A program made the position numbers and the translations under genes. Shown in pieces: positions 13,853 through 29,597 of a stretch of 29,597 nt of DNA. This DNA comes from a virus. The stretch spans positions 1 through 29,597 of the IMG/VR virus record IMGVR_UViG_3300048061_000193. One strand, 5' to 3'. The notes under the pieces are model-generated. The model was given only the letters and a program-made list of their open reading frames with translations. It made no database searches and had not been told where the DNA came from. Positions within the stretch are counted from its first letter, which is position 1. Each line of letters starts with the position of its first letter.

Positions 13853-14905
13853 TTAAACTGGAAGTCGATGCTTGTTAGCGATGTGCCATGCATGCTTTTC
13901 GCCCGGCTCCTGGCTGTTGTATTCCTGCCAGTAGGCTTCGGTCGATGAGAACACTTCAACATGGTTCTCGTTATCAGTCGCAACAGGATTGACAGTGTTT
14001 TGCATCATGATTTCAGCCGCTTTGGCTGCAATCAGATCCGCACCTGCCATCTTGGCTTCTGCAAGTTCCTTGTCATGAGTCTCGCTCATTTGCTCAATTT
14101 GCACGTTAAGCGCTTGATTGTCAGATTGCAATGCGGAGATCTCGACTGCGTTTTCAGCAAGCTGATTCGCGCTCGATTCGATCTCTGAGTTCAACTCTTT
14201 AATCTCGCATTCAAAGCCTTCTTTCATTTCGCCAAGCTCTTTGTCGTATTTAGCAGAAATGCTGGCGACGATTTTCTCGACCGGAAGTGCTTTATCAATT
14301 TTCTCAAGCGCTGCATTCATGTCACCGATAGATGCTGCGGCTGCAATGCCACCTTCGATCTCATCGATAAATTCTGCTGCAAGTGCTTCCTCAGCAGTCA
14401 GCCATGTTTCTGCGTCCATAAGCTGAACAAGCTCCTCGCCGGAGTATCCGCTGCGGCCGTAAGCATTTACGATGTTGAGCTTCATCTTGTCCATCAGATC
14501 TGCGTCCTTGCGAAGCTGATCGCTGTCGCCGACTGATACAGTCCATGGATTGTGAATCATTAGAAACGCATTTGCTGCCATGCGAATTTCATCGCCTGCC
14601 ATTGCGATTACAGATGCCATCGATGCCGCGATGCCGTCGATGTGAGTAACCACTTTAGCGCCATGGCGCTTTAGCACGTTATAAATTACATTTCCCTCGA
14701 TTATTGATCCACCTGGCGAGTTGATGCGCAGGTTGATTTGCTCGATTTCTCCGAGCGAGTCGAGTTCATCGATGAAGGATTGTGCGCTGACGCCAAATCC
14801 TCCGATTTCATCGTAAATGAAAACATCCGCAGAAGCGGTCGCATTGCCCTCGGCGTCCTTGGTTGTTTCCATTGCATACCAGTTATTCTCCGGTTTGTGT
14901 TTCAT
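13853..14905 (-). CDS. ClpP-type head maturation protease fused to scaffold
   Basis: Protein of 350 aa. Residues 25-190 are a ClpP/S14 protease: INSPGGSIIEG at 61-71, GIAASMAS at 91-98 with Ser95 as nucleophile, and FLMIHNPW with His118. Residues 205-310 form a long coiled coil (KELNSEIESSANQLAENAVE) expected of an internal scaffold. Such fusions assemble inside the prohead, then cut themselves and other head proteins. It lies between the portal and capsid genes, as in lambda-like head modules. Confidence 0.85.
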   Translation of the reverse strand: MKHKPENNWYAMETTKDAEGNATASADVFIYDEIGGFGVSAQSFIDELDSLGEIEQINLRINSPGGSIIEGNVIYNVLKRHGAKVVTHIDGIAASMASVIAMAGDEIRMAANAFLMIHNPWTVSVGDSDQLRKDADLMDKMKLNIVNAYGRSGYSGEELVQLMDAETWLTAEEALAAEFIDEIEGGIAAAASIGDMNAALEKIDKALPVEKIVASISAKYDKELGEMKEGFECEIKELNSEIESSANQLAENAVEISALQSDNQALNVQIEQMSETHDKELAEAKMAGADLIAAKAAEIMMQNTVNPVATDNENHVEVFSSTEAYWQEYNSQEPGEKHAWHIANKHRLPV

Positions 14906-18922: not shown

Positions 18923-19590
18923 AACTGGGCACCCTTTAAGTAATCGTCGGCAGAATCCTGCCAGGTGTCGCACATCCAATCCGGCACATTGATCTCGCCT
19001 GGTGTCTTGCGGACCTTGCTGAATCCGGCGAACAGTCTGCCGCCGAGAATGATTGGCTTTAAGAAGTTGTAAACCTGCTCTGGCGTATCCATGGCGCTGA
19101 TCTTCTCGCTCACCTGCTCGAGTATGCCTTCAATGCACGCATTGCCTGCATACGTTGATGCGCGAATGATCCGACAAACCTCGTCTCGCGAAAGCATCTC
19201 GCCGCGGTCCAGCCCGAGCTTCTTTGCATGGGCCTCAGCTTCGCGGATCTGCTTGTCGATCTTCAGATACGCATTAAGCGCGACCTTCTCGCGCTCCTCA
19301 TCCATCGCATCTTTTGCGGTCTGCAATTCTGCAAAATATTCATCGCGCAACTCCTCAGCCGTTTTGGCTTTTGACTTGTCTCGCTTTTTGAGCGGTGCAG
19401 GACTGTTTTCTTTTTTCCACTCGGCCACAAGGATCTTTGATTTAGTCGGCAGCTTGGCGCGACTTGAAAGCCACTCCATTGCAGCTTCATGGTTGTCATC
19501 CGGAAAACCCTCAGACAGCCAGTTGCGCATCGTGGGCACACTGCACCCATAAATCTTTGCGCGGCTTCCTAATGTTTTGCGATCTGGCAT
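18919..19590 (-). CDS. terminase small subunit (Nu1-like)
   Basis: Protein of 223 aa. Residues 5-30 form a helix-turn-helix (LGSRAKIYGCSVPTMRNWLS) that would recognise the packaging site. The middle is a charged helical region and the C-terminus probably contacts the large subunit. The position immediately before the large terminase, with a GTGA overlap, supports the call. The upstream region carries TTGAAT at -35 and several TGTAAA half-sites that may be operators of the RHH protein. Confidence 0.75.
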   Translation of the reverse strand: MPDRKTLGSRAKIYGCSVPTMRNWLSEGFPDDNHEAAMEWLSSRAKLPTKSKILVAEWKKENSPAPLKKRDKSKAKTAEELRDEYFAELQTAKDAMDEEREKVALNAYLKIDKQIREAEAHAKKLGLDRGEMLSRDEVCRIIRASTYAGNACIEGILEQVSEKISAMDTPEQVYNFLKPIILGGRLFAGFSKVRKTPGEINVPDWMCDTWQDSADDYLKGAQL

Positions 19591-19685
19591 TTAGTAAAAC
19601 TTATATGGCTAATTGTAAAATTCAAAATTCGATTTTTTTACACGAAGTCGCTACACCCAAAATTGACGATTGTAAAAAAGATTCC

Positions 19686-19889
19686 TTATGTCCCGCGTTC
19701 ATACTGGTCGGCCCTGGCATGCGATGAACTGATGCTTTCAACAGCGCGAACGATCACATCTGCTCGCGTTGTCTTGTCTCGCTTCGCAGCAGCTTCGATC
19801 TGTTCAATCGTAATGATTGGCAGACGAAAGGTTGTCATCTTGCGTCTGCCTCGATGTGGATCTGAGTAATGTGGCGTTTCCTTGTCCAT
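19686..19889 (-). CDS. ribbon-helix-helix (CopG/Arc-type) transcriptional regulator
   Basis: Protein of 67 aa. RKMTTFRLPIITIEQIEAAA (residues 16-35) gives the beta strand and first helix, and KRDKTTRADVIVRAVESI (36-53) the second helix, of a ribbon-helix-helix DNA-binding dimer. I chose ATG at 19889 over the upstream TTG because the TTG is part of the -35 hexamer. Repression of its own promoter through the palindrome at 19891-19903 is likely. Half-sites TGTAAA/TTTACA at 19614, 19637 and 19671 suggest that it also acts on the packaging operon. Confidence 0.75.
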   Translation of the reverse strand: MDKETPHYSDPHRGRRKMTTFRLPIITIEQIEAAAKRDKTTRADVIVRAVESISSSHARADQYERGT

Positions 19890-19895
19890 GTTTAC

Positions 19896-19925
19896 ACTGT
19901 AAATGCGAATGACTGTCGCTGTCAA
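19896..19925 (-). promoter_or_regulatory. promoter of the RHH gene, leaderless, with operator over the -10
   Basis: TTGACA (19920-19925), an 18-bp spacer and TACAGT (19896-19901), which ends 6 nt before the ATG at 19889. The perfect palindrome TTTACA-C-TGTAAA (19891-19903) covers the -10 and the predicted start site, so a bound dimer would block RNA polymerase. Confidence 0.65.
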
Positions 19926-20122
19926 CTTTCAGAAGATTTGTCTCCATGCTGTATCAACCCCAGCCCCTCTAATTTTTTGAATCCCTTGGTCTTGCACTCA
20001 TGCAGGAATCTGTTGCGAGATACCATTGCCCGGAATTCTGCGTCAGTCTGTCTGGACTCCAAGAAATCTAAAACTGATGTGGACTCTGGCGGTCTGCTCA
20101 GATAACTGGCTTCCTCAATCAT
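19922..20122 (-). CDS. paralogue of the HTH regulator's N-terminal module (no DNA-binding part)
   Basis: Protein of 66 aa. Residues 18-62 align without gaps to residues 13-57 of the 173-aa HTH protein (24 identical of 45, including TxAEF, RN, ECK, KGF). The two helix-turn-helix domains of the longer protein are absent. If the shared module mediates self-association, this protein could bind the full-length regulator and block or retune it, as short dominant-negative forms do; that is inference. It has its own promoter and lies beside another small regulator. Confidence 0.65.
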   Translation of the reverse strand: MIEEASYLSRPPESTSVLDFLESRQTDAEFRAMVSRNRFLHECKTKGFKKLEGLGLIQHGDKSSES

Positions 20123-20129
20123 TGATATT

Positions 20130-20159
20130 TCTTTAATTACAAAAGCCCCGAATTGTCAA
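20130..20159 (-). promoter_or_regulatory. sigma70-like promoter for the 20122 gene, near-leaderless
   Basis: TTGACA (20154-20159), an 18-bp spacer and TAAAGA (20130-20135), which ends 7 nt before the ATG at 20122. The -10 is weak, but the -35 is exact and its distance from the ATG (37 nt) matches the set. Confidence 0.5.
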
Positions 20160-20260
20160 TGCACTTGCGACTCTTCTTTTTAAGTCACAAGCGACGACAC
20201 CCCACCTTGTCTTTGGATGACGACACCCGCCCTTGGTGGCGGTGTCGGCAGACAAAGATG

Positions 20261-20290
20261 GCGACGACATCTCTATATAGGTGTCGTCGC
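20261..20290. repeat. perfect 9-bp inverted repeat (hairpin) in the candidate origin
   Basis: GCGACGACA at 20261-20269 pairs perfectly with TGTCGTCGC at 20282-20290 across a 12-nt loop. The arms contain the GACGACA unit that is repeated nearby. No T-tract follows on the minus strand, so it is probably not a terminator. Confidence 0.6.
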
Positions 20291-20531
20291 TTTGTCGCTT
20301 ATTGCGTAACCCTTTGACTAGTAAACTATTGCGAAACATTTTGCTGCTTATTTTTTAAAATCGTGTCGTTTATTTTGTAAAGTGCTGACAGTTAAAGACT
20401 TTCGCAGTTATTAACAGACTCCTTTTTACATTTGTAAAATTCTTTTACATTCAGCGACACGACATGTCGCGACACATGTCGTTTTTTTTGTAAGTATTTG
20501 ATGTTTAATAATTTGCACGGCGACATGACTT

Positions 20532-22553
20532 TTATTTGTCCTTAATTACAGCAAAGATGTTTCCGGCAGTGATTCTGACCCTTTTTGCGTCCTTCAGCTC
20601 CTTAATGTAACGCTGAACAGTGCGCACAGTTACACCATGCTCATCCGAAAACTCGGCGTTAAAATCGGATGGATTTGCCCCTTCAGGTAGCCTCCGAACC
20701 AGTGCTTTATAGACCGTAGAAGCGCTCACTTTTTGCCCATGTTTGCGCAAACGATTTGCATCAAGATCGCCCCTGGATCTGAACAGTGGGAAGTCCCACT
20801 CGACTACAAATGGCTCGATGCCGCCAAAGTTTCTCAGCGCAGCATGCACAGTAAAACAGTTGTCCTCCTCGTGCGCAGTCAGACCCATAATGGTGTCTGG
20901 ATCGCGAGCAAAGACGCCAGATCCACTGATGCGATCGAGTGGGTCTTTCTCTGATTGATTGCCTTTTGAGTAGTGCGCGCCAAACGCTGCTGCCGCTCCT
21001 GTGCGCTCAACAAGCGCCTCAACTTCATTCATAAGCAGGCCCATATCGCCTGCGCTGTTTTCGTCGCGATCGCCGAGTGCTTTATATATAGGATCGATGC
21101 AAATGAGCGCCAGATTGTCATCTGCGACCTTTTCCTCCAGCGCAGCCAGAATCACCCGTAAATCGTTGCAAACGCCTCTGAGCGACCAAATACAAAGATT
21201 ACTCGGCACTTCAATGCCCATGGCATCGCATACACTTTTGACTCGCTGTAAGAAAAACTCATGCGGAACTTCAAAGTTAAGAAAGATGACGTCCTTGCCT
21301 GTATGTACACATTCGCGGCCGAACCATGGCGTTCCAGACGCAACGCATGCTGCAAGATTCAGCAACGTCCAGGTCTTGTATGACTTACTGCCGCCACCAA
21401 GCACCATCTTCGTCCCTCGGTGCAGCAGACCATCAATTAGCACAGGATAGCGCTGCATGATTCGCTTGCTCAAATCTGCCGGAATCTCATGCCCTCGCGT
21501 CCATTCTGGCAGCTTGCTAATCATCGCAGCTTTGCGCTCCTCGATTGGCGCATCATCTGGCACACTCGGATCTTGGAATGGATCTTTGCCATAAAAGTCG
21601 CGACCGCTCATTGTTGGCTCATTGTCGCCAAATTCTTCTGCGAGCGCGATTGTGGCGTTCTTAAAATCTCCACTGTATTCAAGTGTAGTTAGCAGCGAAA
21701 ATGCTGAATAGTTTTCTGAAGGCTCTAGCGGCGGCGCATTGTCGGTAAAGCAATAAAAACTGCCGTCAGTGCGAAGTGTCCCAGAAACTCCCCGCTCTTT
21801 GCCAGGTCGCGTGCAATGCGTCTCGCTGCTGTTGCCGTTGCCTATTTTCCATCCTGCTTGTGCGAGAATAGCAGCCGATCGCTCTCGGATGTCTGGCGCT
21901 GCCATGTAGCGATCTCCGATGCGATCTGAATCACCTGGAGCTTTGTGATGCTTTGGCTCATTAACAACTGGCGCGATTGGTAGCTCAATAGCATCTGGCC
22001 AGTAATGTGCCTCGCCGTCCATGCTCAAAAAGCATAAGCGCGCGATGTCCTTGCCGCTGTCATCTGCTTCGATGCCGTACATGTCATACATGTAAGCCTT
22101 GGCTGCTTGGAATGCTCGCAGATGATTTTCCGGATCTTGCGGTATCGCCAATATGACTTTTAATCCATTCCCAGATGGCGAAACAAATGCAGCGATGATG
22201 TAAAGATCGTCGCGCAGTCGATCAATAATGCCAGAAGCGTTTTCTACGCCGTCAAAGTCCATGCAGATCATCCCGGATGCTTCAATAAGCTCGGATGATC
22301 TGCGCTTGTTAAACGTACCGCAAAACAGCACGCCTGGCAGTCTGCGCTTTAGGTCGCTGGCTCGATCTTTGTCTCCTGCTGCGACTGCGACTCTGACTTC
22401 ATTGATGACGCTGGAGAATCTGCCTTCTCCTGTGCGAATCCACTTGATGATTTTTTCAAGCTCGTAGTGGTCTGTTTTGGTGTCCTGCGCGGAGGAGACC
22501 ACGCTGATGAGCCTAGATCCATATCCATTTGTTTCTCTCGTTCTAACTGGCAT
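20532..22553 (-). CDS. primase-helicase fusion (BT4734/VirE-type N-terminus, RepA-like AAA)
   Basis: Protein of 673 aa. Residues 15-140 resemble the BT4734/VirE-type primase-associated domain, with MICMDFDGV at 95-103 and FVSPSGNGLKVIL at 123-135. Residues 360-590 are a RepA-like hexameric helicase with Walker A GGGSKSYKT (386-394) and Walker B LALICIDP (481-488), then GAHYSKGNQSEKDPLDRISG. Residues 605-655 are a winged-helix-like DNA-binding end. It should unwind and prime DNA at the phage origin. The start is upstream of the VSSAQDTK core, so ATG at 22553 is the likely one. The repeat-rich region directly downstream is the natural candidate target. Confidence 0.85.
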   Translation of the reverse strand: MPVRTRETNGYGSRLISVVSSAQDTKTDHYELEKIIKWIRTGEGRFSSVINEVRVAVAAGDKDRASDLKRRLPGVLFCGTFNKRRSSELIEASGMICMDFDGVENASGIIDRLRDDLYIIAAFVSPSGNGLKVILAIPQDPENHLRAFQAAKAYMYDMYGIEADDSGKDIARLCFLSMDGEAHYWPDAIELPIAPVVNEPKHHKAPGDSDRIGDRYMAAPDIRERSAAILAQAGWKIGNGNSSETHCTRPGKERGVSGTLRTDGSFYCFTDNAPPLEPSENYSAFSLLTTLEYSGDFKNATIALAEEFGDNEPTMSGRDFYGKDPFQDPSVPDDAPIEERKAAMISKLPEWTRGHEIPADLSKRIMQRYPVLIDGLLHRGTKMVLGGGSKSYKTWTLLNLAACVASGTPWFGRECVHTGKDVIFLNFEVPHEFFLQRVKSVCDAMGIEVPSNLCIWSLRGVCNDLRVILAALEEKVADDNLALICIDPIYKALGDRDENSAGDMGLLMNEVEALVERTGAAAAFGAHYSKGNQSEKDPLDRISGSGVFARDPDTIMGLTAHEEDNCFTVHAALRNFGGIEPFVVEWDFPLFRSRGDLDANRLRKHGQKVSASTVYKALVRRLPEGANPSDFNAEFSDEHGVTVRTVQRYIKELKDAKRVRITAGNIFAVIKDK

Positions 22554-24339: not shown

Positions 24340-24857
24340 TGCTTAATCAGTTTATGAGTCTTGTATGAGTATTTGTAACCAATCTCGGCGAGTCGCCTCT
24401 TGATCGCGCATGTTGTACACTTCATGCGATCCGCGACCTGGTTTATCGTCATATCCTTTTCGCTAATCATTTTTACAGCTTTAGCAACATTTACCTTGGT
24501 GGATCGTTTTGGATCGAGCTTGATGCCCTCTTTTTTCATCCAGTCGGAAATGCTTTTGTAAGATATGTTTCCAAGCGCTGCCCTGATGGCGTCCATTTTC
24601 ATCCCCTTCTCGATCATCTTAGCAGCCTTGTGCGCCATCTCTTTCTTTTGCTCGCTTGTGTAACGAGCGCCAGTGTTTCTTTTCTGCTTATCATTGCTGG
24701 CAATAATCCCCAGCTTTTTCATGCGCTCAAATCCTTTGCTTTTGCATTCAGCAAGTAATTTGTTGCGCGCGATCATTGCATCAAATTCTGCTTCAGTTTG
24801 ATGCTTCTGGAGCATATCCAGAATGCGCGTTGCTTCATTTTTATCAACTTCTGTCAT
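24336..24857 (-). CDS. helix-turn-helix regulator with duplicated N-terminal module
   Basis: Protein of 173 aa. Residues 13-57 form a module shared with the separate 66-aa protein at 19922-20122 (24 of 45 aligned residues identical by eye). Residues 66-112 and 122-160 each look like a helix-turn-helix of the homeodomain/recombinase type (MKMDAIRAALGNISYKSISDWM; MTINQVADRMKCTTCAIKRRL). It is probably a DNA-binding regulator of early or late transcription. It is coupled by ATGA overlaps on both sides. Confidence 0.65.
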   Translation of the reverse strand: MTEVDKNEATRILDMLQKHQTEAEFDAMIARNKLLAECKSKGFERMKKLGIIASNDKQKRNTGARYTSEQKKEMAHKAAKMIEKGMKMDAIRAALGNISYKSISDWMKKEGIKLDPKRSTKVNVAKAVKMISEKDMTINQVADRMKCTTCAIKRRLAEIGYKYSYKTHKLIKQ

Positions 24858-25339
24858 ATATTGTTTCTCCTTCCGTATTCAGCGAGCAGTGCCGCATCGA
24901 CAAATCCGTCAAATGCTATTTTGCAGCGCTCATTTCGTCGCCAGTCCTCGTCTGGCCAGATTTGAGTGGCAGCTTTCAGTGCTGCCGCTTTAGTGTCGTA
25001 CTTACCGCTTGGCCGCGACCAAAAAGCAGATTGCCACTTTCTGGCCGCGACTGTGTGGTAGGGTAAACGATTAACAATGGTCAGCGTTTTAATAACAGCG
25101 AACGAATAGGTCATTGACCGCAGACCGGCAGCGCTCGGAGCATGCCCGCCAGGATCTTCAATGACTAGCACACAATCGAGCAAACCCCATGACTCGAAAA
25201 TGCTGCTTAGTTTATCGATGTCGATTTCCCTGCGCTTTCCATTGCTGATTGTTGGCATGGCAATCTTATCCTCAATTTTTCGATCACTCATGCGCACAAT
25301 CGCGCCGTCCAGCCCGCAGTCAATTCCTATGTATTCCAT
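24854..25339 (-). CDS. RuvC-like Holliday junction resolvase
   Basis: Protein of 161 aa with an RNase H-like fold. IGIDCGLDGAI gives Asp7, VLVIEDPGG gives Glu61, and DGFVDAALLAEY gives Asp144 and Asp148, together the four acidic residues of RuvC-type resolvases. The enzyme cuts branched DNA, resolving recombination intermediates and clearing branches before packaging. It lies in the replication operon, with its stop overlapping the start of the HTH gene by 4 nt. Confidence 0.85.
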   Translation of the reverse strand: MEYIGIDCGLDGAIVRMSDRKIEDKIAMPTISNGKRREIDIDKLSSIFESWGLLDCVLVIEDPGGHAPSAAGLRSMTYSFAVIKTLTIVNRLPYHTVAARKWQSAFWSRPSGKYDTKAAALKAATQIWPDEDWRRNERCKIAFDGFVDAALLAEYGRRNNI

Positions 25340-25617: not shown

Positions 25618-25911
25618 TTAATCAATAAGACCAGCCTCTTTGCCAATCTTATTGTAAATATTGCGATAAAAACGATCTCGCTCGATGCGCTTGTAATGGC
25701 GCTTCATTGCATGCGTAATCGTTGATCGTTCTCTGCCAAATTCTTCACTAATTGAAGCATCGGTTCTCGACATGAATTGCTTTGCCAAAGCATAGCATGC
25801 GTCCCGCACAACAACCAGTTCAGCCTTGCGGCATGAGCTTGATAGCTTTAATCGATCGCAGCCAGTTACTTCAGCCGCTACGTCGAGTAATTCTTTAATT
25901 GTGACAATCAT
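25618..25911 (-). CDS. stand-alone DnaA domain IV (DnaA-box-binding) protein
   Basis: Protein of 97 aa covering only the C-terminal DNA-binding domain of DnaA. The segment FGRERSTITHAMKR (about residues 58-71) corresponds to the DnaA signature GRDHTTVLHA, preceded by the helix containing RKAELVVVRDACYALAKQF. No AAA+ domain is present. In DnaA this domain reads 9-bp DnaA boxes, so the phage protein probably binds such boxes in its own genome (27900-27928) or competes with host DnaA. It is coupled by overlap to the nuclease gene. Confidence 0.8.
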   Translation of the reverse strand: MIVTIKELLDVAAEVTGCDRLKLSSSCRKAELVVVRDACYALAKQFMSRTDASISEEFGRERSTITHAMKRHYKRIERDRFYRNIYNKIGKEAGLID

Positions 25912-26696
25912 GATCTTGGATCAAAGTTTTTGATGTAACGCCATAATGCGCACATTGACAAGAACGCATCATACTCTTTCAGCAATTGGTCTGGCTTATA
26001 AACAGCCGTTTCAATCCGTCCGGGCTCAGTCGTGCTGATGTACACGTTGGCTCCGTAGCATCGATCCAATGCGCCAAAAGCTGCATGACCATAAGCTGCA
26101 ATCTGCATCGGCTGAAAGTCGTATGGTGTAACTTTTTCGCCTTCGCGCGTTTTGCGTGTTTTGAAGTCGATAATGATGTTGCCAGATCCGTAGTTCGCCA
26201 GAAGATCCACGCGGCCTGCATAGCCCTCTGATCTGTTCACAACAACGTCCTCGCGTCTGATGTTTTGCAGATTCAAGCTGTGCAGATACTCCATTGTTGG
26301 CTGCACATATTGCTGCAAGTCTGGATGGCAGTCCGCGCCATCAAATGCTGCATCGATTGAATCGTGAATGCGCGTTCCTAAGTCTGCGGCCTCTGTAACC
26401 TCAGATCGACTGCGCTGCAAGATCCTGTCGTGGTATCGATCATCTGATTCGCCATCGTTGCGCGCTGTAGTTAGCGCTGCCTCAATAGCCTTGTTAAGTT
26501 TCCACTTATCCAGTCCGGGCTTTGCCATGATGCCGAAGATGGTTGTTACTGACGGCAGCAGCGTATGCTTTCGCGCATCGCGAAGCGTTGTGCTGCGCTG
26601 CCCTCCATCTTTTTTTAGCATGGTGTATGCAGGCTTGCCGTCTAACGTGTACCAGTGACTGTCAGACAAGTTTGATTCTTTTTCTAATATTGCCAC
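25908..26696 (-). CDS. PD-(D/E)XK-family exonuclease
   Basis: Protein of 262 aa starting with GTG, with a GGAG about 9 nt upstream acting as ribosome-binding site. The nuclease core is visible as GYAGRVDLL around residues 160-166, followed by IIIDFKTRK around 175-183, giving the D...D-x-K metal site. A downstream QIAAYGHAA helix is typical of the RecB/Cas4/lambda-exonuclease group. Such phage enzymes resect DNA ends for recombination. It follows the SSB-like gene, and its stop overlaps the start of the DnaA-like gene (ATGA), forming a replication-recombination operon. Confidence 0.8.
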   Translation of the reverse strand: MAILEKESNLSDSHWYTLDGKPAYTMLKKDGGQRSTTLRDARKHTLLPSVTTIFGIMAKPGLDKWKLNKAIEAALTTARNDGESDDRYHDRILQRSRSEVTEAADLGTRIHDSIDAAFDGADCHPDLQQYVQPTMEYLHSLNLQNIRREDVVVNRSEGYAGRVDLLANYGSGNIIIDFKTRKTREGEKVTPYDFQPMQIAAYGHAAFGALDRCYGANVYISTTEPGRIETAVYKPDQLLKEYDAFLSMCALWRYIKNFDPRS

Positions 26697-26783: not shown

Positions 26784-27383
26784 TTAGAATGGGCAATCTG
26801 CGTCACTATCAACGCCTGGGCTCCATGCTGGTGGTGCAGATGCTGGTGCTGCTGCTGCTGGCGCTGCTGCTGCTGGCGCTGTTGGCGCTACGGGCGCTGC
26901 TGGCATTGCAGGAGCTGCTGGCTGCGAAAACTGCTCCGCAGGAATTACTTGAGATGTGTAATCAGCAAGCGATGTCTTAGGAGGAGCAATGCGCACAATC
27001 TTGTTGTACAATTTGCCCATCTGGGAAGTCACCTGCTCAATGCTGACAACAGCGCCCTTGCCTTTAAGCTCACAGTAATCCCAGCCCATCTTTGGTGGCT
27101 GACCCAGCCATGAGCTTAGGAATTTTACAAGCGCGCTTTTAGGGCTTCCGCTGATCTTCATCTCAAAAGTCTGCACTTTGTAGAGCCGACCATCTTGAGC
27201 TTTGAAGCCAAAGAGAAATCGAGTGACATCGATCTGCTCAGTTTCTTCGGATTGATACTTGCGACGAGTCACTCCGAACTCGTCTGCGACATCTAAGCAG
27301 GTCGCGATATATTCGCCTGCTGGTGCAACATCCTCAATATCAAAGCCGGAGGATGAGTCGGCTGGTGCTGTTAGTGTAGCCAT
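26784..27383 (-). CDS. single-stranded DNA-binding protein, SSB-like
   Basis: Protein of 199 aa. Residues 1-135 form a compact beta-rich domain with an alternating hydrophobic pattern. Residues 150-187 are a low-complexity Ala/Pro linker, and the protein ends DSDADCPF, an acidic tip with a terminal Pro-Phe like the protein-interaction tail of bacterial SSBs. I do not see a textbook OB-fold signature, so the assignment rests on the tail, the linker, and the position beside the nuclease and replication genes. The start codon is 1 nt after the endolysin stop. Its start region shares an 18-nt identical stretch with that of the major capsid gene. Confidence 0.6.
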   Translation of the reverse strand: MATLTAPADSSSGFDIEDVAPAGEYIATCLDVADEFGVTRRKYQSEETEQIDVTRFLFGFKAQDGRLYKVQTFEMKISGSPKSALVKFLSSWLGQPPKMGWDYCELKGKGAVVSIEQVTSQMGKLYNKIVRIAPPKTSLADYTSQVIPAEQFSQPAAPAMPAAPVAPTAPAAAAPAAAAPASAPPAWSPGVDSDADCPF

Positions 27384-27384
27384 A

Positions 27385-27786
27385 TTATTTTATTTTATGT
27401 TTTATCGTTTTGCCATTGGCGAGATCAGTCGCGCCCATGGCGAGAAGTTGTTGTTTTACTTTTGCCCAATAAGCATCAGTGCTGCTGCGCTTGTAACCAT
27501 TCGGCCCGCCGTTATGGATGCGAGCTATGTCCTCGGCTGTGACATCTCTGCCAAGTCGTTGAGTTGTTGCATAGCGTTGCATATATGCTTCAAACATCTG
27601 AATGGCTGCCACTGAGTCAAATGCTTCGCGATGGCTCCAGTCATGATGTGATTGTTCGCTGGCATCTTTACAGTATGCTTCGCGGATCTGCAAGCACCCA
27701 TAAGCTTGCTCTTTTTTATTAAGCGCAAACTCGTTGCCGCTGGATTCGATCATTATGATCGCGAGTATGAGTTGAAATGGGATCAT
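27385..27786 (-). CDS. lytic transglycosylase-like endolysin (SLT family)
   Basis: Protein of 133 aa resembling the soluble lytic transglycosylase fold. It has a hydrophobic first helix, ESSGNEFAL with the likely catalytic Glu14, then QAYGCLQIR (the counterpart of GAxGLMQ), and a C-terminal RIHNGGPNGYKRS that matches the NGG segment of this family. The family cleaves the glycan strands of peptidoglycan and forms 1,6-anhydro-muramic ends. The N-terminus is helix 1 of the domain rather than an export signal, so a holin is expected. It lies between the membrane peptide and the SSB-like gene, away from the tail module. Confidence 0.8.
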   Translation of the reverse strand: MIPFQLILAIIMIESSGNEFALNKKEQAYGCLQIREAYCKDASEQSHHDWSHREAFDSVAAIQMFEAYMQRYATTQRLGRDVTAEDIARIHNGGPNGYKRSSTDAYWAKVKQQLLAMGATDLANGKTIKHKIK

Positions 27787-27866
27787 AGCGCGCAGTAAAA
27801 AAGGATGCCGACAAGAGCGCCAGCAATGATGCAGATGGGTAGTTGTAGGTATAGGTATTTATTCAT
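27783..27866 (-). CDS. 27-aa single-pass membrane peptide, candidate holin or lysis accessory
   Basis: A very short ORF. After a polar start (MNKYLYLQLP), residues 11-27 are one hydrophobic helix ending at the stop codon. The stop overlaps the start of the lytic transglycosylase as ATGA, the coupling style used throughout this genome, which is the main reason to believe the ORF. Its position directly before a muralytic enzyme without a signal peptide suggests help with lysis, for example as a pinholin-sized peptide. It is smaller than characterised holins, so the role is tentative. Confidence 0.55.
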   Translation of the reverse strand: MNKYLYLQLPICIIAGALVGILFYCAL

Positions 27867-27899
27867 ATTGTATCTGGTTTAGTTTCGCTCTCATGAGCT

Positions 27900-27967
27900 T
27901 GTGGATAACAATGCACACGTTATTCACCCGTACAAGTAAAAAGATGAAAAACTTTTTTCACTCATCC
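27900..27967. other. DnaA-box pair with AT-rich flank, candidate replication origin or DnaA-responsive regulatory site
   Basis: TGTGGATAA at 27900-27908 is a perfect DnaA box (TTATCCACA) on the minus strand. TTATTCACC at 27920-27928 on the plus strand matches TTATNCACA except at the last base. The boxes face each other with centres 20 bp apart and are followed by an A/T-rich tract to about 27960, which overlaps the end of the 27958 gene. The phage also encodes a DnaA domain IV protein (25618-25911). The box matches are visible in the sequence; origin function is inference. The site could instead regulate the lysis genes immediately downstream. Confidence 0.5.
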
Positions 27968-28185: not shown

Positions 28186-28215
28186 ACTATAGATTATCAA
28201 GCGCCATGATGTCAA
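28186..28215 (-). promoter_or_regulatory. sigma70-like promoter for the 28179 gene, leaderless geometry
   Basis: TTGACA (28210-28215), an 18-bp spacer, then TATAGT (28186-28191). The -10 ends 6 nt before the ATG at 28179, so transcription would begin at or within a base or two of the start codon. The -35 is embedded in the 3' end of the dNMP kinase gene. Confidence 0.6.
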
Positions 28216-28714
28216 TCGCTGCCGTCTCGATGTCCTCTGCGTCAATAATGTGGCAAGGAGATTCAATGCCATATTCGCTGGCATGCTCCTGGCTGTAGTC
28301 AAAGCCCTCGCGCTTCAGCTCAATAACGCTGCCACCCATCTCTTTGATCATCGCGACTTCATTCTCAAAGCGGCAGTCATCAATAATGATCTTGTTATAT
28401 GGCGACATCTCAATGCGCTTCACCATTGTTTTGATCCAGATCTCGTCGTGAATCGTGTTCCTGCCCCAGTCAGTACCAAGCGATTGCATCATCTCTCGCG
28501 GCGTCTTTCCCAGCCAATCGATCGGCTCATCTTTGAGATGAGGCTCGACCAAATATTTAAGATCAACGCCCATGCCCTGCATCATGTTGCGAATTGGCGC
28601 TGCAAACGATAAGACCTCAAGATCGTGCATCTTTCTGTTGATGGCGTTTGCGATTGATGTCTTGCCGACGCCTTTCGGCCCGGCTAGTGCGATGATTTTT
28701 CTTTCTTCTCTCAT
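28187..28714 (-). CDS. deoxynucleoside monophosphate kinase (T4 gp1-like)
   Basis: Protein of 175 aa with a Walker A motif GPKGVGKTS at residues 12-20. A mid-protein segment (IIIDDCRFENEV) resembles the nucleotide-binding and lid region of phage dNMP kinases. These enzymes phosphorylate dNMPs to dNDPs, feeding the dNTP pool during phage replication and recycling host DNA. The start overlaps the phosphoesterase stop (ATGA), so the two genes are translationally coupled. Its last codons contain a TTGACA that forms part of the promoter for the next gene. Confidence 0.85.
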   Translation of the reverse strand: MREERKIIALAGPKGVGKTSIANAINRKMHDLEVLSFAAPIRNMMQGMGVDLKYLVEPHLKDEPIDWLGKTPREMMQSLGTDWGRNTIHDEIWIKTMVKRIEMSPYNKIIIDDCRFENEVAMIKEMGGSVIELKREGFDYSQEHASEYGIESPCHIIDAEDIETAAIDIMALDNL

Positions 28715-29597
28715 TGTGATATATGGTAATGGCGTGTTTTTAGACCTTTGTTGAAATCATACTCAAATGCGCTGGCGCCTTTCTGGCTGCCAATAAATCC
28801 TGCGCCTGCGTGCCAAGCATCAGTAGGACATAATGCCTCCAAATATTCAACCACAAGACCGCTCTGCTCGTCGATTGTTACCGGCGCGATGACTTTCTTA
28901 TGATGAACATGGCCGCATTTCAAGTGCCTGAACTTTGTCTGTCCCCATTCTTTCGCAAACTCGGCAGCAATAATCATCGGCCATTTTTGCGCAGCGATGC
29001 GATCGCCGTGTGACCATGCTAGGAAGTTGTTGCCCCAGACCATGGATTTGCGAGGAGATGGCGACTGCTTAATCGTCACATGGTCAACACTGCTGTAATA
29101 CGCCTCAAGCACGCGAGACAGCCAGACCTCTGAGTGCCATGAGTGATTGCCTTCCAAGACGACGACCTCGACGTTCTCGGCAATCTGAGACGCCACAGCT
29201 ACAGCATCCACGCAGGCAGCGACCAGATAATCGACGACCCTGTGATAGCGAGTGTCAACGTCGAGGACGTGTCCGCTGTGTTCTGTTCGGTTGCTGCGAT
29301 TGTCTGAGTGCATCATATCGCCACCGAACACCAGAACGGCTTTCTGTGGTCGATTTGCCTTGCTCGCCAGATCCTCGACGGCTTCGATCATGCGCTGCGC
29401 TGCAATGTCGCAGTCGTAGTTTGTATCAAGCGTCTCCTTCTCGTCTGCGTACATGCCGACATGGGCATCAAAAATATCCAGCTCAAACAAAGTATCGCTG
29501 GTGTCGGTCTTGCGCGCCCTGCGCTTCTTCACTTTGCCCTTGCCTCGCGCCTGGTCGCACAGCGCATCGACGAAAAGCTGCATCGCTTGCTGCTGTG
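28711..29597 (-). CDS. HTH-metallophosphoesterase, catalytic part
   Basis: This is a calcineurin-like metallophosphoesterase, cut here by the contig end; the full protein starts at 368 through the circular join. The metal-site motifs appear in the expected order: DAH near residues 124-126 of the joined 375-aa protein, then GGDMMHSD, EGNHSWHSE, SHGD, and GHVHHKK near the C-terminus. The family hydrolyses phosphodiesters or phosphomonoesters in the cytoplasm; here the substrate may be DNA ends, a nucleotide or a nucleotide signal. It lies directly upstream of the dNMP kinase with an ATGA overlap, so a role in nucleotide or DNA metabolism is likely. The fold is well supported; the substrate is unknown. 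Confidence 0.85.
   Translation of the reverse strand, partial: QQQAMQLFVDALCDQARGKGKVKKRRARKTDTSDTLFELDIFDAHVGMYADEKETLDTNYDCDIAAQRMIEAVEDLASKANRPQKAVLVFGGDMMHSDNRSNRTEHSGHVLDVDTRYHRVVDYLVAACVDAVAVASQIAENVEVVVLEGNHSWHSEVWLSRVLEAYYSSVDHVTIKQSPSPRKSMVWGNNFLAWSHGDRIAAQKWPMIIAAEFAKEWGQTKFRHLKCGHVHHKKVIAPVTIDEQSGLVVEYLEALCPTDAWHAGAGFIGSQKGASAFEYDFNKGLKTRHYHISQ
29471..29597. repeat. terminal direct repeat, right copy (circular overlap)
   Basis: Exact second copy of bases 1-127. Removing one copy gives a unique circle of 29,470 bp. Confidence 0.95.

Follow-up and report, generated by a model that had tools for sequence, protein, structure and literature searches.

On the minus strand at positions 25618-25911, an ORF starting with ATG encodes a stand-alone DnaA domain IV protein of 97 aa, recognized by profile, structure and alignment. 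The first-pass annotation had placed a 97-aa ORF here, which was borne out to the exact coordinates. The window, that is the whole 29,597-nt stretch that was analysed, is the IMG/VR virus record IMGVR_UViG_3300048061_000193. Its positions 1-127 recur exactly at 29471-29597, and this 127-nt direct terminal repeat suggests that the genome is complete at 29,470 bp, being either circular or terminally redundant. The minus strand encodes nearly all of the larger genes of this phage, and tRNA and Rfam searches returned nothing. A ClpP-type protease encoded at 13853-14905, adjoining a lambda-type portal gene, is a capsid maturation protease candidate.

The 97-aa protein matched PF08299 (Bac_DnaA_C) with 37.0 bits, above the cut-off of 31.5 (E 3.6e-9). 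The TIGR00362 model, which covers full-length DnaA including the AAA+ part, scored 39.1 bits against a cut-off of 343.9 and was aligned only at positions 346-434 of its 437, at the C-terminal part. The protein is DnaA domain IV alone, without domains I-III and their AAA+ part, as had been read from the sequence at first sight. It is neither a chance ORF nor a fragment, because three sister phages in IMG/VR encode the same full-length 97-aa protein with 89-91% identity. The structure prediction against domain IV that had been put forward as a check was run as well. AlphaFold2 modelling from a shallow alignment gave five models, of which only the top one (mean pLDDT 83.9; 42-61 for the other four) is used here. 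Its best structural match was E. coli DnaA domain IV with DnaA-box DNA (1J1V, TM 0.86/0.89), with a VIA Z of 15.7 and an rmsd of 1.6 over 93 residues. Other DnaA structures came next, and the first non-DnaA match had a Z of 6.3. The fold of the protein, as modelled, is that of DnaA domain IV.

The gene is surrounded by genes of DNA metabolism, all on the minus strand. A PD-(D/E)XK exonuclease is encoded at 25908-26696; the last 4 nt of its gene are also the first of the DnaA-IV gene, an overlap suggestive of translational coupling. Also found were a Holliday junction resolvase at 24854-25339 (PHROG 1770), a deoxynucleoside monophosphate kinase at 28187-28714, a DNA repair exonuclease at 28711-29583 (PHROG 704), and a 199-aa protein at 26784-27383 whose acidic C-terminal tail DSDADCPF is its only SSB-like trait and for which no Pfam match was obtained. 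The phage primase-helicase that had been noted in the same genome lies at 20532-22553, with a BT4734-like N-terminal domain, an AAA_25 domain and a weak C-terminal HTH. A lysozyme-like (destabilase/SLT) gene at 27385-27786 was observed within the replication block of this phage and its relatives. In this lineage the genes follow each other as exonuclease, dNMP kinase, a 73-aa protein, lysozyme-like protein, SSB-like 199-aa protein, PD-(D/E)XK exonuclease, DnaA-IV, a 76-aa protein, resolvase and primase-helicase, and the order is common to relatives with small losses. Among twelve related contigs beyond this phage's own species, collected by helicase or exonuclease identity, the DnaA-IV homologue always comes after the PD-(D/E)XK exonuclease, and wherever a related contig extends over both loci, the 199-aa protein accompanies DnaA-IV. 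In relatives with a divergent helicase, the genes for the 199-aa protein, the PD-(D/E)XK exonuclease and DnaA-IV are absent together. The DnaA-IV gene sits in an operon for replication and recombination that is conserved among the related phages. A phage DNA polymerase was considered as a difference between relatives with and without DnaA-IV and was rejected: the relatives examined that lack DnaA-IV carry RecT-like and DEAD-helicase genes and no polymerase.

Annotated phage records contained no close relative matching the 97-aa protein at E 0.01, and a genome_contigs search for host or prophage copies found no close relative. Distant helicases were found in Verrucomicrobiota and Bacteroidota MAGs. 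A host or prophage copy of the stand-alone protein was also sought in three such genomes, in which only full-length or contig-truncated canonical DnaA was present.

In DnaA, Arg399 reads TTA in the minor groove and the helix 434-451 reads TnCACA in the major groove (PMC5742627). The contact residues are R399, P423, D433, H434, T435 and H439 (PMC7561715), and base-specific positions have been given as 399, 423, 432-435 and 438-439, with a highly conserved dyad at 433-434 (PMC5043019). In the alignment to E. coli DnaA, the phage protein keeps R399 (R28), R407 (R36), K415 (K44), R432 (R60), T436 (T64) and H439 (H67). D433 and T435 are conservatively changed to E61 and S63, and H434, L438 and P423 are replaced by R62, T66 and A52. 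The DnaA-box-reading signature ascribed to the protein in the first-pass annotation therefore stands in part, for R399, R432 and H439 and in conservative form for D433 and T435, and fails at H434, L438 and P423. The base-contact residues R399, D433, H434 and T435 have a bearing on which box is read, whereas the domain IV fold family does not demand them. Position 433 is Glu in this phage and Asp in the three sister phages. Arg434 and Ser435, by comparison, are invariant in an eleven-sequence subfamily alignment of this phage lineage, and the more distant lineage L147 has them too. His434 was found in each of the ten DnaA-IV proteins from other phages used for comparison, in E. coli, in Thermotoga and in three Verrucomicrobiota/Limisphaerales genomes. 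From these alignments, the lineage-wide Arg-Ser in place of His434-Thr435 is apparently new here, and the predicted reading surface differs from that of canonical DnaA at His434.

Matching DnaA boxes had also been claimed for this genome, and here the claim did not hold. Only one TTWTNCACA site was found where 3.0 were expected, and TTATNCACA with at most one mismatch occurred 18 times against 27 expected. Of the three sister phages, two have the sole perfect box in mutated form, as TTATCTACA and TTACCTACA, and almost no DnaA boxes were found in the relatives. Three near-DnaA boxes, TTATTCATA, TTATCCACA and TTATTCACC, lie at 27859-27928 in the intergenic gap 27787-27957, a clustering reached in 0.7-5% of shuffles. 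This cluster, to which the perfect box belongs, is not conserved and is probably not the target of the DnaA-IV protein. With a genome total below chance, canonical DnaA boxes were rejected as the target, and the cluster of TTATNCACA boxes that would mark a DnaA-box-based phage origin is lacking in this genome.

Could the protein then bind the DnaA boxes of the host, or compete with host DnaA, and so block or divert chromosome initiation? In E. coli, DnaA boxes can be bound by domain IV alone (PMC4588119). Clusters of DnaA boxes were also absent from eight phage genomes that encode a His434-type DnaA-IV, so that a host target is possible and binding to an array of its own is not general for phage DnaA-IV. 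Nevertheless, we hold such a host-directed role to be quite improbable for this phage: the highly conserved base-contact His434 is Arg throughout the lineage, and the equivalents of P423 and L438 are changed as well. Among the three roles offered in the first-pass annotation, takeover of host sites and blocking of host initiation are less likely because the predicted reading surface departs at His434. The best fit is with marking of the phage origin, given the operon in which the gene lies and a repeat array beside the helicase-primase.

This noncoding array, listed on the minus strand at 20153-20526, contains 17 GACA-core sites, mostly CGACA and in both orientations, between the helicase-primase and TerS/TerL; a 66-aa ORF at 19922-20122 comes after it. 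It is a candidate phage origin or control region and the proposed target. The repeats were first noticed in relatives, and a blind k-mer cluster scan was then run. In this genome CGACA was the most clustered 5-mer, directly after the helicase stop; 8 copies fall within 200 bp (Poisson 2.5e-5, uncorrected for the roughly 500 k-mers). The same scan ranked TGACA at the top in L018, L020, L021, L023 and L024 (4e-9 to 1e-5), and GCGACA was the top 6-mer in L025 (1.2e-4) and the fifth in L134 (8.7e-5). The GACA cluster was absent from nine related contigs with a divergent helicase, and those of them that span the operon also lack the DnaA-IV protein. L147, a new lineage fetched after the prediction by protein alignment alone, had the array directly after the helicase as predicted, with AACGAC and ACGACA as top 6-mers (3e-6 to 5e-6). 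Altogether the array was present between the helicase-primase and the packaging genes in nine of the nine contigs that reach the region, from five lineages; protein, helicase and array are inherited together, and these counts are not independent events. The contig of L143 ends before the region and has no bearing on the count. Short repeats packed closely by a replication gene and conserved in relatives, as expected of an iteron-type origin, are found here.

The clade-B repeat consensus YTWTTGACA equals TTATNCACA except for a change of C6 to G. The repeats of this phage, L025, L134 and L147 are unlike the DnaA box in their 5' half, and the common part is GACA preceded by C. Inverted GACA..TGTC pairs recur in the arrays. 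As single-stranded DNA, the region 20180-20310 is predicted to form a strong nested stem-loop (z -5.8); the arrays of L025 and L134 gave z about -4.4, and those of L018 and L021 folded more weakly. A hairpin CGACAT-CCCC-NNN-GGGG-AGN-ATGTCG is common to the arrays of L025, L134 and L147. The minimum of the detrended GC skew was weak and lay about 1 kb away from the array. In four relatives lacking DnaA-IV (L092, L103, L129 and L135), the helicase is followed by a different noncoding region with hairpins, marked by CCCACAC-type inverted repeats; ATGATA is clustered in that of L129, and an RHH-like gene was seen in L092 and L047. An RHH-like small protein was rejected as binder of the array, no such gene lying by the arrays of L021, L023, L024 and L025 and no Pfam match for one being found in this phage.

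The array and the DnaA-IV protein co-occur at the lineage level only and the helicase differs too (identity to that of this phage about 60% in the array group versus 21% in the divergent group), so that DnaA-IV is not picked out by this association. An equally placed candidate binder is the C-terminal HTH of the helicase. As an iteron-type initiator, the primase-helicase could bind the GACA array through this winged helix-turn-helix and leave to DnaA-IV another task, for example accessory binding or contact with a host replication protein. An HTH_11 match was obtained at the helicase C-terminus (4.1e-5 in L147, 0.0024 in this phage), every lineage with an array has the HTH, with a recognition helix that varies with the array type, and the array begins right after the helicase stop codon in this phage, L025, L134 and L147. 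We consider this explanation rather doubtful, as it accounts neither for the retained DNA-binding residues of DnaA-IV and its consistent Arg434/Ser435 nor for the DnaA-box-like repeat of clade B.

DnaA also acts as a transcription factor. DnaA-IV may accordingly be imagined as a phage transcription regulator at an array that would be an early/late control region and not an origin, and it is consistent with this that in every lineage the array separates the replication block from the packaging genes. Such a role seems unlikely, since a promoter search of 19550-20600 gave no good enrichment (2 found versus 1.8 expected) and the DnaA-IV gene stands amid replication genes.

The reading that we tentatively prefer, and to which we give a fair hearing at somewhat less than an even chance, is that DnaA-IV is an origin- or control-region-binding protein of the phage with altered specificity, acting on its own genome. 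From the observed fold, residues, synteny and arrays, we infer binding, origin function and helicase recruitment along the following lines. The phage would use the free-standing domain IV to bind specific sequences in its own DNA. Its altered recognition helix would bind the GACA array, where Arg62 would read the G that GACA has at the place of C6 in CACA; box position 6 would in this way be paired with Arg434. The array so bound would be the origin of the phage or its control region, and DnaA-IV may help to place the primase-helicase there. Without an AAA+ domain the protein cannot form an ATP-dependent DnaA oligomer by itself, so that opening and loading would fall to the helicase-primase of the phage or to factors of the host. 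It is conceivable, and in our view rather unlikely, that the lineage has turned domain IV into a dedicated initiator, in which H434R and T435S together with the change of the box from CACA to GACA would make a host-DnaA-independent origin-recognition pair that directs the primase-helicase.

Stand-alone domain IV proteins of phages are already known, widespread and annotated, and the novelty earlier attached to this kind of protein was overstated. A search with E. coli domain IV found small DnaA-C proteins in many phages, for instance of Pelagibacter, Polaribacter, Cellulophaga, Rhizobium, Microcystis and Flavobacterium, with 107-191 aa and often among replication/recombination genes. BFVD contains dozens of entries named 'Chromosomal replication initiator, DnaA C-terminal' and many stand-alone proteins of this kind under 'uncultured Caudovirales phage', and DnaA is listed in all HTVC010P-type genomes of freshwater SAR11 phages (PMC6811365). 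No functional study of such proteins was found in the literature searched. The present lineage offers a testable pair, a small protein and a candidate array, with a predicted specificity-changing residue and natural variants of both.

The closest known counterparts are the proteins of Pelagibacter phages HTVC010P and Greip, Flavobacterium phage tooticki and Polaribacter phage P12002L, which are likewise small domain proteins without AAA+ and often near replication genes. However, the ten compared have the canonical His434, many carry an extra N-terminal stretch, and no comparable GACA array was seen in the eight genomes of this type that were scanned. With iteron origins of plasmids and phages, the array shares dense short repeats by a replication gene and AT-rich stretches; it differs in being a putative origin only and in that the candidate binder is a DnaA domain IV and not a Rep protein. 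DnaA domain IV itself (PF08299; PDB 1J1V, 3PVP) is matched over the whole modelled fold (TM 0.86-0.89) and at the equivalents of Arg399, Arg407, Lys415, Thr436 and His439, while the phage protein departs from it by having no domains I-III and by the changes His434 to Arg, Thr435 to Ser, Pro423 to Ala and Leu438 to Thr.
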